Positions 11,584 through 55,504 of a DNA stretch of 64,000 nucleotides are shown in pieces. The notes under the pieces were generated by a model. That model did not search any database, was not told the origin of the DNA, and saw only the letters and a program-made list of their open reading frames with translations. Position numbers and translations under genes: made by a program. Each line of letters opens with the position of its first letter. Position 1 is the stretch's first letter. Source of the stretch: a virus; the IMG/VR virus record IMGVR_UViG_3300042455_001086, positions 186,001-250,000 of that record, one strand, 5' to 3'.

Positions 11584-13422
11584 TTATGAAAAATTCACGG
11601 TTTTTAGATTAATTACCCTAACATTAATATCTTTGTTTGGGAATCTAATTTGATAAATCTGTGTTGGTTCGGCAAAAATTGTGTCGTTAATTAACTGAAT
11701 TTGTTTTGTTGCCGCATCAGAATATCTTTGTGATGTTTGATTTGATGAATATTGACCCCCAACTTTATTGTAGAATCTAATATCTGAAATACTAACAATA
11801 CCATTTTCGTTTTGAATAATTCTTCTCAATTCTGATACATTAACATTTTGACCCAATTGTCTTGTTGTAGGGCTAAAGAATGTTGTAACCAAATTAATGA
11901 GTTTAGACACAAGCGCACCTTGGTTTTGTGTCGCATCCAAAACAACATCAACATCAATAGATAAATCAATCGGATTTGCACTTTCAATGGAAATATAATC
12001 ATTTATCATTCTATAATTTGAAAGATAATTGGCGACATTATTTTTTAATGTGTTTGATATTGTGTCAGTTAAATTACCACTAGCGTCAAATGACAACATT
12101 TTAATTTTAATCTTATTATTTTCTTCTGTGATTGATACTTTTGCTGGAGCTCCAAATTGTGATGGCATTGTTCTAATTAATGACTCATAATCGTTAATCG
12201 TTGTTGCTCTATTTTGTGCCGCAAAGTTAAACGAAACCATTTGTCTAACATCTTCTGTTGTTGGTGCGTTTGCACCCCCAATAGCTGCCGTCACATTATT
12301 ACATCTCAATGTGTTAATTACACTTCTATTTACACTTTCAGATGGACCATTAACAAAAAATGAAACAGTACCAATTTGTGTTATAACATTTGCACCAAGA
12401 TTTGATGCTTGTCCGCCACCAATTCTATATTGAATAAACAAAGTAGAGTTTGACTTTAATGCCGAACCCAATGCTAAATTATTTGAATACTTATTCAAAT
12501 CAAAAGAATTTCCGGTTCTTGCAAATTCTCTTAATTGTTCTTCAGCCGAAATGTTTCCACCACCAAATGTCATTTTTAAATAACCTTCCGGAGTATATTC
12601 CGATATGAATTTTGTATTTGTTGTAACATATTTACCAACTTTAATTCCAGGTTGGTCTGATACTTTTGTTGGGTCTTCAATAAACACCCTATCTTCAGCG
12701 AGAGCTTTTACTTCATACCATCTATTATCAAGACCTAAAAATTCTTGTGGTTCTGGAATATTAGTATATTGTGTTCCGTCTTTTAAAATAACACTTGTAA
12801 TACCCAAAACATTTTTTTCTGGTAAAAATAATTCAAAATAAGGTTTTACATCATTTGGTGTAATTACTCTTTTGAATACTTTGGTAATACCATTTACAAC
12901 AACTTCTCTTTTTGTAATTGTATAATTTAATAACTTTCCGTTTGCATCAAAATTTGGTATTTTTAATCTATTTGGTGATCCTTCAGCATTAATTGGTGAT
13001 GCAAAGTCAATATCATATACGGTCTCAAATGGTTGTCCCGCTCCGGACGCTTGTGATCCTCTTCTTAAAACACCACAGTATCTTAAATCTTCCTTATCAC
13101 CAAAAGCCGGAACTGTGATTGAAAAATCAACTAATGCAACTGATGGTCTTTGTCCTGGTATTTTTAATCCATAAGTTCTTGCTATATTGTAAATTGATGA
13201 TTTTTGTTGTGCGTATTGTAATACGGTTTCTTGAATACTCCTATCTATTTGGAAATGTAGATTGTCCGTTACTGCCGCATTTAAGTCCATAAGAACAGAA
13301 AACACCCCAGCATCATTGAAATTCTGAATAAGGTCTGGGTAATAAGTTCTTGTAAAATTAATTAACTCAGTTCTTATAGTCTGGAAGTCTCTAGCTGTGT
13401 ATGATATTTTCTTTTCCGCCAT
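11584..13422 (-). CDS. Baseplate wedge protein, gp6/gpJ-like
   Basis: 612 residues. The N-terminus (ISYTARDFQTIRTELINFTR, then YYPDLIQNFNDAGVFSVLMD) is the signature of the T4 gp6 / phage baseplate J family: 'ft.rDf..ir..li...k..yPd..sdf..s..g..l.dl.A...d.l.fqiDr...E'. The middle and C-terminal parts contain the GGANAPTTEDVRQMVSFNFA region and the RTMPSQFGAPAKVSI region typical of baseplate J. The wedge protein connects the hub to the tail-fibre periphery. It is placed 4 nt downstream of the gp25-like gene, the usual wedge-gene pairing. Length is close to T4 gp6 (~660). Confidence 0.9.
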   Translation of the reverse strand: MAEKKISYTARDFQTIRTELINFTRTYYPDLIQNFNDAGVFSVLMDLNAAVTDNLHFQIDRSIQETVLQYAQQKSSIYNIARTYGLKIPGQRPSVALVDFSITVPAFGDKEDLRYCGVLRRGSQASGAGQPFETVYDIDFASPINAEGSPNRLKIPNFDANGKLLNYTITKREVVVNGITKVFKRVITPNDVKPYFELFLPEKNVLGITSVILKDGTQYTNIPEPQEFLGLDNRWYEVKALAEDRVFIEDPTKVSDQPGIKVGKYVTTNTKFISEYTPEGYLKMTFGGGNISAEEQLREFARTGNSFDLNKYSNNLALGSALKSNSTLFIQYRIGGGQASNLGANVITQIGTVSFFVNGPSESVNRSVINTLRCNNVTAAIGGANAPTTEDVRQMVSFNFAAQNRATTINDYESLIRTMPSQFGAPAKVSITEENNKIKIKMLSFDASGNLTDTISNTLKNNVANYLSNYRMINDYISIESANPIDLSIDVDVVLDATQNQGALVSKLINLVTTFFSPTTRQLGQNVNVSELRRIIQNENGIVSISDIRFYNKVGGQYSSNQTSQRYSDAATKQIQLINDTIFAEPTQIYQIRFPNKDINVRVINLKTVNFS

Positions 13423-50357: not shown

Positions 50358-50875
50358 TTATAATCCTCTAAATTCGTTAGGTCCAACTGGTGCGGCAATA
50401 ATAGTTCTATAAAATGGACGGTAACCTTTATATGTGTGTTTTATATCAGATGTAACACGACCATCATTCACAACCGTGTAGTATCGAACAAAACTTTCTG
50501 TATCATAATACCCAATATAATCTCCAAAATCGATATCAACATCTAAATCTTCGAGAGTTTTTAAATAAACAGACATTGTAATATTTCCAGGTTCAAGTTG
50601 GTCCATTTTGGTTGATCCCATAAATTTATTTTCAGGTGTCGCAATTCCAACATAAGCGTTAAATTCAACTGGAGGTAAAAATTTAATACCATCTGAAACT
50701 GTTTCACCATAAACATCATCGGTTTTGGTTTTGTTTTTATCGACACGATATAAAACACAGGTATAGTTCATATCACCGATTAACCATTCCATCCCAAGGC
50801 CCACCTCTAAAAAAAAAAATCTTCTTCTCCGAAGAACTTACCAAGCCTTGTTATGGGCACTCTATTATTTGACAT
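50358..50875 (-). CDS. Neck protein, gp14-like, with apparent frameshift
   Basis: The downstream frame (50358-50804) lacks a convincing start, its first codon being GTG. The sequence before it encodes MSNNRVPITRLGKFFGEEDF from ATG 50875, in another frame, ending at TAG right after an 11-T run (50809-50819). One extra T, or a -1 slip on the T run, joins the frames as ...EEDFFFLEVGLGMEWLIGD. The combined N-terminus matches a neck protein family as I recall it (RVPITRLG.FFGEE.F...~~.G.E~l.GDMN~t.vLYRVDr). Either an assembly error in the homopolymer or real slippage. The protein would join head and tail. Confidence 0.72.
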
Positions 50876-51110
50876 ATAAGTTATGTTTTTTTACAAATTT
50901 AAATATAATTTTATTACTACATCCATAAATATTACCTATCTGAACATAGTTTAGTCCATTTATTAAATGGTTTTTTATTTCATCAACCACTAAATTATAA
51001 ATATTAGATTTTGGTTTATATATTTCATATTGTCTTAAATTTTTATTAATTGTGTTTATAGCACAATTAAATAAATTACTAATTTCTTTTATAGTTTTAT
51101 TTTTTATAAT
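50865..51110 (-). pseudogene. Detached HTH domain of GIY-YIG endonuclease
   Basis: About 80 codons with no ATG: two helix-turn-helix-like units (KTIKEISNLFNCAINTINKN and EIKNHLINGLNYVQIGNIYG). GIY-YIG homing endonucleases usually carry such HTH or NUMOD units after the catalytic domain, so this is probably the C-terminal half of the gene at 51118-51564, separated from it by the TnpB-like right end. An alternative TTG start at 51125 exists. The stop (50865) overlaps the beginning of the neck gene. Confidence 0.6.
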
Positions 51111-51112
51111 AT

Positions 51113-51258
51113 GTGAACTACCCAACCACTAAAGATGGTTGGGCTTCAGGACTCGTAGACTCACCTAATGGTAACGCCTCCTCCTGTTTTTGTTTAATGT
51201 CCGATTCTATTCTATAACCAGACAATATGTTTATTCCTTGTTTCAGGATGTTTTTACC
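51113..51258 (-). mobile_element. IS200/IS605 TnpB tail and right end, omega-RNA-like
   Basis: Minus strand. Codons 103-148 of the GIY-YIG frame encode GKNILKQGINILSG, then SDIKQKQEEALPLGES and EAQPSLVVG, which I recognise as the C-terminal end of IS605-type TnpB proteins. The 3' part forms CCCAACCA/TGGTTGGG (51121-51143, 7-nt loop) flanked by CTAC/GTAG and GTGA/TCAC pairs and ends GTAGTTCAC: the typical right-end hairpin of IS200/IS605 elements, also the 3' scaffold of omega RNA. Local GC is clearly higher than in the flanks. The RuvC nuclease part of TnpB is absent. Recognition is from memory, without a search. Confidence 0.72.
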
Positions 51259-51564
51259 TAATATTGGATTTATATTACCACCATCAGCAAGGTTAAATAA
51301 ATCAAAATTTAATTGTCTATATTTTGAAATTTCGTCTATTTCAGCTTGTAATAAATCATCATATGATTTACATTCTTTTATTTGTCTAATTATTGGTCTT
51401 TTATTTTCATTTTTTAAATCATTAAACCAAGATGCGATAAATTGATTTGTTGGTGATTTTAAATGACCGTTTAATCTTCTTTGTAGTCCATTTTTTGTTA
51501 TACCAATATACTTTAATTCGTTAGTGTCTGGACAAAATAAACCATATAATTCAAACCTATTCAT
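51118..51564 (-). CDS. GIY-YIG endonuclease fused to TnpB C-terminal tail
   Basis: 148 residues. Residues 1-~97 are a complete GIY-YIG domain: YGLFCPDTNELKYIGITKNG (motif YGL-YIG), Arg29/30 in LQRRLNGH, metal-binding Glu75 in LLQAEIDEIS and Asn91 in FNLADGG. Residues ~103-148 do not look like a GIY-YIG linker but like a TnpB tail (see 51113-51258). The ATG has a TATTTAT element 5 nt upstream. Homing endonuclease activity is plausible since the catalytic residues are intact, but the usual DNA-binding half is cut off and lies at 50865-51110. Confidence 0.85.
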   Translation of the reverse strand: MNRFELYGLFCPDTNELKYIGITKNGLQRRLNGHLKSPTNQFIASWFNDLKNENKRPIIRQIKECKSYDDLLQAEIDEISKYRQLNFDLFNLADGGNINPILGKNILKQGINILSGYRIESDIKQKQEEALPLGESTSPEAQPSLVVG

Positions 51565-51569
51565 TATTG

Positions 51570-51576
51570 ATAAATA
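51570..51576 (-). promoter_or_regulatory. TATTTAT element
   Basis: 5 nt before the GIY-YIG ATG (51564), divergent from the helicase element at 51595. Confidence 0.38.
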
Positions 51577-51594
51577 TCATTTTATGATTATTTT

Positions 51595-51601
51595 TATTTA
51601 T
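51595..51601 (+). promoter_or_regulatory. TATTTAT element
   Basis: Plus strand, 11 nt before the TTG start of the helicase gene (51613). Confidence 0.38.
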
Positions 51602-51612
51602 ATCTTGGAATT

Positions 51613-53373
51613 TTGGAAATACAAAAAAAACTGATAGAACATAAAGCCCTTGATTTATTGGACTCATATAGTGGGGCCAATAACCATATTCTATATATGA
51701 AGACCAAAAAAGAAACTAATAAAAAGTTTTATCCAACAAGAACTCAAGCCGAATATGTTGTAACTTATTTTGATACAAAACCAAAGGTTGCAAGAAAGTG
51801 GGTTGAACTGGATCCATACTTTGCAAAGAAGTTTGCACAAGAAAGATATTTGTTTGAAACGCCAGAAAAAGTCTATATTGAAAAGCTACTTGTTGAAAAA
51901 GATAAATCATATCATATCTGGGGTAAATTTTTTGAAAAAGACAGTTTGTCCGAATTTTGGGTGCCCAAGTCGTCCCTTATTAAATCACAAACGGTAGATG
52001 ATATTGTTATTGATTATTCTAAATACGAACATAGACCTCCACTATCACACCAGAAAGAAGCAATAGAAAAACTTACAAAATCTAGAAGATTTATTTTAGC
52101 TGATGACATGGGCGTCGGAAAGACATGTTCCACAATTATCGCAGCACTTGAGACCAACACAAAAAAAATTTTGGTAGTTTGTCCTGCGTCACTTAAAATA
52201 AATTGGCAACGAGAATTTAACATATATACCAATCGTAGTATTTTTATTGCTGAAGGAAAAAAATTCTCAACGGAACACGATATTGTAATTGTTAATTATG
52301 ATATTTTAAAGAACTTTTATGATATTAAAAACCCAAGTGATTCGCCAATTGGTCAAACTAACTTTGATTTAATCATATTGGATGAAGCTCATATGGTAAG
52401 TAATAGTCAAGCTGCTAGAACAAAAATAATTAATAGTTTTACAAAAAAAGCCAAATATTTGTGGTTATTAACGGGAACACCAATGACAAACAGACCAATC
52501 AACTATTATAATTTATTAAATTTGATTGAAAGTCCGGTTGCACAAAACTGGATGGCGTATGCTATTCGTTATTGTCAAGGATTTCAGTTTAGAGCTGGCA
52601 ATCGAAAAATATGGAATGTAACCGGAGCATCAAATCTGGAAGAATTAAGAGAAAGAACATCAAAACAAATTTTAAGAAGATTAAAAGAAGATGTTTTGGA
52701 TTTACCGGATAAGATTATTACACCCGTATATTTAAGAACATCATCAAAAGAATATAAAGATTTAATGGGTGAATATTATGAATGGTTAGAAAATAAAAAA
52801 GAAGAATCCTCTTCTCTTACCGTTCAGTTCTCAAAACTTATGAAAGTAAGAAAAGTAATTGCAAATGAAAAAGTAAAAGAAACAATTGAATTTGCTCAAA
52901 ATATTATAGACCAAGGAAAAAAAGTAATAATATTTACAAACTTCACAGATACACTTCAACTTATCCATAATCATTTTGGTAAAGAATCGGTATATCTTGA
53001 TGGTAGTTGTAATAAAGTCCAAAGACAATACGCTGTAGATCAATTCCAAGAAAATGAAAAAATTAAAGTGTTTGTTGGAAACTTAAAAGCCGCCGGTGTT
53101 GGACTTACATTAACTTCAGCCGAAGTTGTAATAATGAACGATTTATCATTTGTTCCCGCAGAACACGCACAAGCTGAAGATAGGGCATATCGTTACGGTC
53201 AAAAAAATAATGTATTAGTTTATTACCCAGTGTTTATTAATACAATTGAAGGTACGATATATGATATTCTAAATAAAAAGAAAAAAATTATCGGAACCGT
53301 AATGGGTGATGAGGTCCAAGATACTGGTGATGTTGTGGAAGAAATTTTGAATCTTATAAATAAAAGACCTTAA
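51613..53373 (+). CDS. SNF2-family helicase (SMARCAL1/UvsW-like role)
   Basis: 586 residues with a probable TTG start at 51613; the first ATG (51697) would remove 28 residues of conserved-looking sequence (KALDLLDSYSGANNHILYMK). Motifs of superfamily 2 SNF2 enzymes: Q-type region YEHRPPLSHQKEAIEKL, Walker A ADDMGVGKTCS, DEAH box LIILDEAHM, motif III LLTGTPMTN, motif V LKAAGVGLTLTSA, motif VI QAEDRAYRYGQ. Likely a DNA translocase for fork remodelling or recombination, a role UvsW plays in T4. First gene of a plus-strand cluster that continues with virion-type genes. Confidence 0.88.
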   Translation: MEIQKKLIEHKALDLLDSYSGANNHILYMKTKKETNKKFYPTRTQAEYVVTYFDTKPKVARKWVELDPYFAKKFAQERYLFETPEKVYIEKLLVEKDKSYHIWGKFFEKDSLSEFWVPKSSLIKSQTVDDIVIDYSKYEHRPPLSHQKEAIEKLTKSRRFILADDMGVGKTCSTIIAALETNTKKILVVCPASLKINWQREFNIYTNRSIFIAEGKKFSTEHDIVIVNYDILKNFYDIKNPSDSPIGQTNFDLIILDEAHMVSNSQAARTKIINSFTKKAKYLWLLTGTPMTNRPINYYNLLNLIESPVAQNWMAYAIRYCQGFQFRAGNRKIWNVTGASNLEELRERTSKQILRRLKEDVLDLPDKIITPVYLRTSSKEYKDLMGEYYEWLENKKEESSSLTVQFSKLMKVRKVIANEKVKETIEFAQNIIDQGKKVIIFTNFTDTLQLIHNHFGKESVYLDGSCNKVQRQYAVDQFQENEKIKVFVGNLKAAGVGLTLTSAEVVIMNDLSFVPAEHAQAEDRAYRYGQKNNVLVYYPVFINTIEGTIYDILNKKKKIIGTVMGDEVQDTGDVVEEILNLINKRP

Positions 53374-53404: not shown

Positions 53405-55504
53405 ATGAAACTTACTGTAAAACATATTGATTCTGGTCTTGACCCACAAGACAAGAAAATGTATAACGATTTTATTAAATTTATAAATTCAAAATATCCA
53501 GTCAATAAAGAACTCGAAATTTTATTTCTTGGTGAGAAAAATGGACATATGTCCACTGGGTCTCAAAATATGAACGGAGTTATTAAAGTCTTATCCAAAA
53601 ATAGATTGAACCGTGATATAATGAGAACTCTAGCACACGAATGGGTTCATGCGCATCAAAGATTTGTTTTAGGTAGAGAAAGAGGTCCGGACATTGGTGG
53701 TCAAAATGAAGATGAAGCAAATGCTTTCGCTGGACAATTAATTAAAATGTTTGAAAAAGAATATCCAGACTATAATGAACTTGTTTTTGAACATTCAAAA
53801 CCATTAATAAAAAAACTTGATCTTTTAAAAGAAGAAATTCTTAAAACAGAAAAACAAAATTTACATAAAGAATTTATTACTGAAATGAAAAAAATTGGTA
53901 TTGAAAAATTACCATATTCATATTCGGCTATGAAACAATTTGTTGATCCTAAAACAATGGACATTCATTACAACAAACATTATAAAGGTTATGTTAAAAA
54001 ATTAAACGCCGCATTATCAAACAAAAAAGGTGAAATGGAACTTGAGGATATTGTTAAGTCCATATCAAAATTTGACACAAAAGTAAGAAACAATGCTGGT
54101 GGGGCTTTTAACCATGCTTTATTTTGGAAAATGTTGTCACCAAAAAAACAAAAACCAAGCAAATCAATTTTAGAAAAAATTAAAAAAGATTTTGGAAATT
54201 TAAAAAAATTAAAAGATGAATTTAATTTAATTGCCAAAGATGGTTTTGGTTCTGGTTGGGCTTGGTTAATTCTTACAAAAAATAATAAATTAAAAATAAC
54301 TTTTACACCAAACCAAGATAATCCATTGATGGATGTTGTCAAAGGTGGTGGTTTTCCGTTACTAGGACTTGATCTTTGGGAACATGCTTATTATTTAAAA
54401 TATCAAAACAAAAGAGACGAATATATAAATAATTTTTGGAACTATATAAATTGGGATTTTGTTAATGATTTATATGAAACGAAATCAAAAAAGAAATTAA
54501 ACGAATCATTAAGAAAAATTATTGTTGAAAATGATACTATGGATTATGATTTAAAAAAGGCAATGAGTCGTGAATTACAAAAAATCAGACTTATACCCTT
54601 GGATGCCGAATCCGCATCAGAAGCAATTAAAAACATCATAACTGCCGAAACTTCAAGAGGTAATATTGATTTTAATAGAACACTTGAAGGTCTTATGTCG
54701 CTTAATTTGAGTAATGTATCAGAAAGATCAAAATATAGATTTAATAATTATTTTCAAAGATTTGTAAAAAGTAAGTCAAGAGGTCTTGATTTTGAAGGTA
54801 TGGTGGCCGGATTTTTAAATGGTGATCTAGCAACAAGTAATGTTTCACCATTCGATGTCTCAACACCAGCTGGTGATAAAATTTCTTGTAAAATCGTTAG
54901 AAGTCAAAAAGAACGAATAACACTTAAAAGTATTAAAGAAACATTGGGTCAATATTTAGCCAACTATTCTGGTTCTGAAGAAAACAAACAAGAATTGTTA
55001 AAGATGAGCCAACAACCAAATTTTCTTAGATTATTGGTAAATCACGAAAATCAAGATTTGAAAAATCAAGCCGAAGATATATTGGAATTTTTACTTACAG
55101 ACATCACCGGGTTGTTGGTTGGTATCCCAAATGAAACAAAAGTTGGAATTGATTTATATTATTATGATAAAAATAAAATTATTGATCTTGTTAAAACACC
55201 TGGGTTATTAAATGCCGGAAGATCACCAGAAGCACAAACAATATCATTATCAACAAAAATACTTAGTGGTGATAAAACTATGTCTGGATTTATTCAGTTT
55301 CCAGTTTTAACAATGGATGATTATCAATCTTTTTTAATTGGTGATGAAAAAACAAAAGAAGTTTTAAATTTATTTAATCAACTTGGAAACAAATACGGTG
55401 TTCCAAGACTTGGAGACAATTTACCACAAGACATTATTATAGGTTTATCTAAAAATGAAAGATTCAAGTTAGATCTTAAAAAATTGGTAAATCCAATAAG
55501 GTAA
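53405..55504 (+). CDS. Metallopeptidase-superoxide dismutase fusion protein
   Basis: 699 residues, three parts. (1) 1-~150: zinc peptidase-like domain with HEWVH (78-82) and a later NEDEANAFA (Glu104 as possible third ligand). (2) ~165-358: complete Fe/Mn superoxide dismutase, from LPYSYSAMKQFV through MDIHYNKHYKGY, FNHALFW and PLLGLDLWEHAYYLKY; the four metal ligands map to His188, His237, Asp323 and His327, and Tyr196 matches the active-site Tyr. (3) ~365-699: after a helix SLRKIIVEND, an unrecognised domain with FDVSTPAGDKISCKIVRSQK. Flanked by a helicase and a neck protein gene. SOD activity is likely; why a phage protein carries it is unknown. Confidence 0.88.
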   Translation: MKLTVKHIDSGLDPQDKKMYNDFIKFINSKYPVNKELEILFLGEKNGHMSTGSQNMNGVIKVLSKNRLNRDIMRTLAHEWVHAHQRFVLGRERGPDIGGQNEDEANAFAGQLIKMFEKEYPDYNELVFEHSKPLIKKLDLLKEEILKTEKQNLHKEFITEMKKIGIEKLPYSYSAMKQFVDPKTMDIHYNKHYKGYVKKLNAALSNKKGEMELEDIVKSISKFDTKVRNNAGGAFNHALFWKMLSPKKQKPSKSILEKIKKDFGNLKKLKDEFNLIAKDGFGSGWAWLILTKNNKLKITFTPNQDNPLMDVVKGGGFPLLGLDLWEHAYYLKYQNKRDEYINNFWNYINWDFVNDLYETKSKKKLNESLRKIIVENDTMDYDLKKAMSRELQKIRLIPLDAESASEAIKNIITAETSRGNIDFNRTLEGLMSLNLSNVSERSKYRFNNYFQRFVKSKSRGLDFEGMVAGFLNGDLATSNVSPFDVSTPAGDKISCKIVRSQKERITLKSIKETLGQYLANYSGSEENKQELLKMSQQPNFLRLLVNHENQDLKNQAEDILEFLLTDITGLLVGIPNETKVGIDLYYYDKNKIIDLVKTPGLLNAGRSPEAQTISLSTKILSGDKTMSGFIQFPVLTMDDYQSFLIGDEKTKEVLNLFNQLGNKYGVPRLGDNLPQDIIIGLSKNERFKLDLKKLVNPIR

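Follow-up and report, generated by a model that had tools for sequence, protein, structure and literature searches.

A very probable IS605 deletion scar in a phage homing endonuclease gene, and IS605-like units carrying a GIY-YIG nuclease in place of tnpB

Described systems closest to the locus

IS200/IS605 transposons that carry TnpB and an omega RNA, such as ISDra2 and its relatives (PMC8612924, PMC10278001), have a hairpin at the right end and a tnpB 3' end that overlaps the RNA scaffold, and they insert 3' of a short T-rich target. Phages also harbor free-standing GIY-YIG homing endonucleases of the I-TevI type (PHROG 314). Protein nucleases occur in the Mariner elements of large algal viruses, whose 3' part is occupied by a GIY-YIG or restriction-type nuclease (Bao and Jurka 2013, PMC3627910, the Fanzor paper), and IStrons (PMC4227781) join an IS605-type element to a second selfish element, a group I intron. 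Few subscription papers were covered by the literature searched, which yielded no account of IS605 elements with a homing endonuclease in the position of TnpB.

The window analyzed here is a stretch of 64,000 nucleotides, covering bases 186001-250000 in the 257,166-bp virus record of a large tailed phage (a tail sheath protein is present). One of its genes resembles both of the first two systems and departs from both. Like the ISDra2 type, it has the right-end hairpin, a tnpB 3' end overlapping the scaffold and an insertion 3' of a short T-rich sequence, but the left end, tnpA, the target and most of tnpB are missing and 145 bp are left. The corresponding gene of a related phage contig (L003, IMGVR_UViG_3300008267_001961) shares GIY-YIG, NUMOD3, zinc-finger and HTH parts with the I-TevI-like enzymes, whereas in the window the enzyme breaks off after codon 103 and a TnpB tail forms the end of the protein. 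The arrangement also differs from that of the Mariner elements. Insertion scars and I-TevI-like genes are already known and ordinary, and the novelty attaches not to the window locus but to a lineage of units in other phages, described below.

Structure and origin of the fused gene

The fused ORF (51118-51564, minus strand) encodes 148 residues, of which residues 7-84 match the GIY-YIG domain (PF01541, E=1.4e-5). Positions Y7, Y19-I20-G21, E75 and N91 are invariant in alignment A3, and the catalytic positions are retained in the window ORF. This part (51256..51564, minus) corresponds to approximately codons 1-103 of the original homing endonuclease gene, because the join to TnpB sits at the GTAAAA hexamer at 51252-51257. 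The last 45 residues, KNILKQGINILSGYRIESDIKQKQEEALPLGESTSPEAQPSLVVG, continue in frame as a TnpB C-terminus, and the intact 398-aa TnpB proteins encoded by L005-L009 finish with the same stretch. At the DNA level, 51113-51257 is identical to the 3' ends of the intact tnpB genes at 141 of 146 positions in L005 (97%) and 139 of 145 in L009 (96%). These identities show the tail to be true TnpB sequence rather than a fortuitous likeness. The first-pass annotation of this DNA, made from the letters alone, had described an intact GIY-YIG domain running in frame into the end of a TnpB protein and had let that reading depend on a match to TnpB C-termini; with the domain match and the 97% identity of the last 45 codons to L005, the description holds.

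The same DNA constitutes an IS605 3' end (51113..51257, minus), comprising the last tnpB codons, the right end and an omega-RNA-like scaffold. The right-end hairpin CCCAACCATCTTTAGTGGTTGGG followed by TAGTTCAC (51121..51143, minus) is identical to that of the intact elements L005-L009, and a similar hairpin plus GTAGTTCAC terminates the other listed elements; both the hairpin and the end GTAGTTCAC lie where the annotation had placed them. The predicted fold of the 146-nt stretch has an energy of -44.4 kcal/mol, compared with -28.0 for shuffled sequences (z=-4.35), and compensatory changes are present in 12 of the 30 predicted pairs among 14 related right ends, in agreement with the proposed right end and scaffold. 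A covariance model built from such ends (R1) matches the window at 51105-51262 with 180.6 bits, a match that holds by construction because the window sequence is included in the model, and it also finds L034, L044, L166, L213, L140 and L144, none of which was in the training set, at 74-151 bits. An Rfam scan of 50500-52000 returned no omega-RNA family match and only chance matches under the gathering scores.

As a member of the IS200/IS605 or OMEGA (TnpB-omegaRNA) systems, the locus is partial: it has the right end with hairpin, the tnpB 3' end and the scaffold fold, and lacks the left-end palindrome, TnpA (Y1), TnpB and with it the RNA-binding RuvC nuclease. The RuvC/TNB core of TnpB is missing at the locus, as the annotation had noted, and no PF01797, PF01385 or PF07282 match above cut-off was found in the 257-kb record (G000). 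The left-end pattern is absent across the whole record, no second IS605 that could serve as donor was found within this genome, and the DNA upstream of the GIY-YIG gene stays colinear with L003. As an I-TevI-like homing endonuclease, the window protein possesses the GIY-YIG catalytic domain, while NUMOD3, zinc finger and HTH are not in the same protein, being deleted or out of frame; the cut-off HTH end of the original enzyme lies at 50865..51112 (minus), out of frame with the GIY-YIG part and with 96% DNA identity to L003. The genome of the window phage contains three more GIY-YIG genes (G000:C1:121414-121638, 50894-51112 and 12781-12909, all minus). The window also encodes, at 53405-55504 on the plus strand, a phage protein of 699 aa whose middle part is a complete Fe/Mn superoxide dismutase (PF00081, PF02777 E=6e-38).

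In L003 the gene is uninterrupted, encodes a 324-aa I-TevI-like homing endonuclease and has the same neighbors as in the window, which supplies the comparison with a phage lacking the insert that the annotation had suggested. The L003 protein contains a GIY-YIG domain, two NUMOD3 motifs and an I-TevI-type zinc finger match (below the curated cut-off), its C-terminal region matches the end of other phage endonuclease families, and it resembles the I-TevI DNA-binding domain in PDB (1i3j, E=4e-5). Window and L003 share 95% of their DNA positions as far as the left junction and 96% from the right junction onward, and a further contig, L004, is colinear with the window on both sides at lower identity than L003. 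A blastn search of the locus against annotated phages gave no match.

The insertion point lies in L003 between GATTTAT and ATATTTTAAAA, and in L004 between GACTTAT and ATATTGTAAAA. On the window/L003 comparison, the junction of right end and host gene falls at 51112..51113, from which a putative guide, ATATTATAAAAAATAAAACT, would start going down; this stretch is where the interrupted gene resumes (ATATTTTAAAAAATAAAACT in L003, with TTTAT just before it). In a census of left ends in viral contigs, covering dozens of elements, TTTAT stands just 5' of nearly every element and is thus the target of this IS family. The deletion junction emerges from a three-way comparison of window, L003 and L005: the hexamer GTAAAA (51252..51257, minus) is common to the host gene (TTAGGTAAAACACAT in L003) and to tnpB (AAGTAAAAACATCC in L005), and the window reads TTAGGTAAAAACATCC. 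The annotation had also proposed to look for the junction in related phages; it was not found in diverged phages, and only in L002, a second IMG/VR record with the same junction that shows 100% identity to the window across 8,444 bp and may share one sampling site with the window record.

We are highly confident that the GIY-YIG/TnpB fusion is the deletion scar of an IS605 element in a homing endonuclease gene, which was the first of two options in the annotation (an internally deleted IS605 scar splitting a GIY-YIG/HTH homing gene) and is borne out by the L003 allele, the TTTAT target and the GTAAAA microhomology. The ancestor would have been a free-standing I-TevI-like homing endonuclease gene of this phage lineage, with GIY-YIG, NUMOD3, zinc finger and HTH, which an IS200/IS605 element carrying tnpB would have entered just 3' of TTTAT. 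Two GTAAAA hexamers, at host codon 103-105 and approximately 145 bp from the right end of the element, would later have bounded a deletion that took approximately 0.4 kb out of the host gene together with the target, the left end and most of tnpB. The join would have been in frame by chance, such that the GIY-YIG domain ends with the TnpB tail and a stop codon and the HTH follows out of frame. One insertion and one microhomology deletion explain the locus on the sequences compared, and the intermediate with the full element is only inferred because no phage with a full IS605 still inside the host gene was found. Taken alone, the window locus is an ordinary scar, yet an unusually clean one, in which the uninterrupted allele, the insertion point with its target, the microhomology and the loss of TnpB and left end are all visible, while the order of events and the loss of activity would follow from them. 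The scar is incapable of transposition because its left end is gone, and homing has probably been lost because the DNA-binding part is gone from the scarred protein.

Other readings of the fused gene

The locus probably does nothing, although the open ORF and the intact scaffold fold leave some room for a retained use. One such use, which we consider unlikely, is that the scar serves as a source of guide RNA in trans, with TnpB from a second element, located in the host or in a phage infecting the same cell, processing its transcript. The resulting guide would direct the cutting of the uninterrupted allele at the TTTAT/ATATT... boundary and so favor the scar-bearing phage, and the scar itself would be spared because no TTTAT adjoins its guide match. 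The 145 nt of retained scaffold with its intact fold would fit this reading, as would the empty allele, in which TTTAT occurs along with a match of 20 nt that contains one mismatch, and the TnpB-less mini-elements of phages, which at the sites listed mostly retain approximately 100-190 nt of the same end. An independent internal-deletion derivative of IS605 (L010:3842-4140; same coordinates in L011) also has its right breakpoint within approximately 10 bp of that in the window. However, the window record is without TnpB, and this sole similar breakpoint likewise lies at a microhomology, so that its likeness is explained by chance.

It is also rather improbable that the truncated GIY-YIG protein, ending in TnpB-derived residues, has itself been retained as a functional nuclease. 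The frame is open, the catalytic positions are retained, and the GIY part has few nonsynonymous changes relative to L003 (dN 0.008, dS 0.137), but the low dN mainly reflects the time before the scar: the window branch carries four synonymous and two nonsynonymous changes in this part, too few to judge selection on the scarred ORF. Moreover, the NUMOD3, zinc-finger and HTH parts, which bind the target in I-TevI-like enzymes, are gone, and outside the identical contig no relative has the tail at this junction.

An assembly chimera is very improbable: the record is metagenomic, but the second record L002 matches it with zero mismatches over those 8,444 bp, and the microhomology junction with host sequence matching on both sides fits a biological deletion. 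The second option of the annotation, a GIY-YIG nuclease guided by an omega-like RNA with which it would share one transcript, is scarcely credible at this locus, since the arrangement comes from a local deletion confined to the window phage (the junction recurs only in the identical L002), the TnpB body is missing, and the persisting lineage of GIY-YIG elements (L060 and L061, below) has lost most of the scaffold. Of the two-option interpretation, the scar stands and the RNA-using nuclease is unsupported at this locus. Nor does the window locus belong with GIY-YIG elements such as L060, a possibility rejected because a left end is missing and the DNA upstream follows the uninterrupted allele colinearly.

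IS605-like units with protein nucleases in other phages

Searches for right and left ends in viral contigs yielded at least 154 distinct right-end sites; all counts are lower bounds, and the comparison loci drawn from these contigs are metagenomic. Among them, the broader idea behind the annotation, that GIY-YIG nucleases and IS605 ends may form one element, finds its counterpart in two unrelated phage contigs, at L060:2861-3726 (a 35.9-kb contig, L046/L060; G007) and L061:2865-3723 (a 246.8-kb contig, G016). Both are units of approximately 860 bp in which TTTAT is followed by a left-end palindrome (GAGCGTAAAAC...GATGTAAGCGAC), a GIY-YIG-NUMOD3 homing endonuclease and the right-end hairpin. 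Their proteins are 77% identical and their DNA is 78% identical over 867 bp, with the homology ending at the IS ends and the flanks unrelated; besides the unit, the sole other stretch common to the two contigs is a 42-bp right end. With both ends, TTTAT, these homology limits and the unrelated flanks, they qualify as IS605-like elements with GIY-YIG in the place of tnpB. The left-end stem shows matched changes on both sides between the two units, and purifying selection acts on the nuclease (dN 0.147, dS 1.08; dN/dS ~0.14).

The L060 gene resembles the window ORF in reading in frame into the final TnpB codons, where it terminates, whereas the L061 gene stops before them, and the protein tail is therefore not needed. 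Of the scaffold, 62 nt of the tnpB 3' end are left in these units. A TnpB element with similar ends lies approximately 4 kb from the unit in both contigs; the neighboring element in G016 has TnpA and TnpB, and that in G007 has TnpB and no TnpA. In the IS605 element of the L061 genome, two passenger ORFs are located between tnpA and tnpB (L322:8816-9831). A genome-collection scan for relatives of the GIY-YIG element protein gave no close one among the matches listed, only partial matches (27-51%), and the 13-kb surroundings of L061 had no near match in annotated phages.

Other nucleases are associated with these ends in several ways. An EndoVII-like nuclease of 189 aa (PHROG 1035, E=1e-19) lies between IS605 left and right ends in a unit of 931 bp (L199 7437-8368, equivalent to L323:4552-5482; reverse/minus); only two weak partial relatives of it were found, and no empty site was found for L060, L061 or L199. 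At L192:3289-5793, tnpA and a nearly full tnpB accompany a GIY-YIG gene whose frame continues into a second TnpB tail. A DUF1064/endonuclease-I-like nuclease interrupts tnpB before its conserved KNxMKNH region (L188:8448-10332; L016:1-1155), and in L252 a GIY-YIG gene immediately precedes the final portion of tnpB. In L223 a left end precedes a NUMOD3-containing homing endonuclease of PHROG 314, which is truncated where the contig ends; a search for relatives of this protein returned only its own contig. In L271 a homing endonuclease ends at the right end, with no left end seen. Some of these nucleases may have invaded tnpB rather than replaced it.

The retained scaffold separates these units from the TnpB-less mini-elements, which measure 220-340 bp and have both ends and an omega-RNA-like scaffold (L044:1-267; L140:119-446, minus; L144:12246-12476, minus). 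The tnpB 3' end is retained over 96 nt in L199 and 59 nt in L271, compared with mostly ~100-190 nt in the mini-elements, and R1 scores are 21-47 bits in nuclease-replaced units versus 57-184 in the mini-elements, in both cases for the sites listed. Thus, the scaffold is mostly kept in TnpB-less mini-elements and lost in most nuclease-replaced units.

Collectively, we think it fairly probable that in these units a protein homing endonuclease, of the GIY-YIG kind in L060 and L061 and EndoVII-like in L199, took the place of TnpB, with most of the scaffold lost and the hairpin ends kept, that the units spread via TnpA in trans, and that the nuclease takes over copy retention; they would combine transposition with homing. 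The nearest parallel is the algal-virus Mariner with its GIY-YIG protein in the 3' portion (PMC3627910), which resembles L060, L061 and L199 in placing a protein nuclease in a transposon family also able to carry a TnpB-family protein, but belongs to eukaryotic-virus transposons rather than IS605. IStrons differ in that their partner is the intron and not a homing endonuclease replacing TnpB. L060, L061 and L199 suggest that TnpB and protein homing endonucleases have interchangeable roles in IS605 transposons and render this testable, and such interchangeability would directly support, by comparison, the view of TnpB as a homing-like retention nuclease. The keeping of the scaffold in mini-elements and its loss in most nuclease-replaced units predicts which of them still rely on TnpB in trans.
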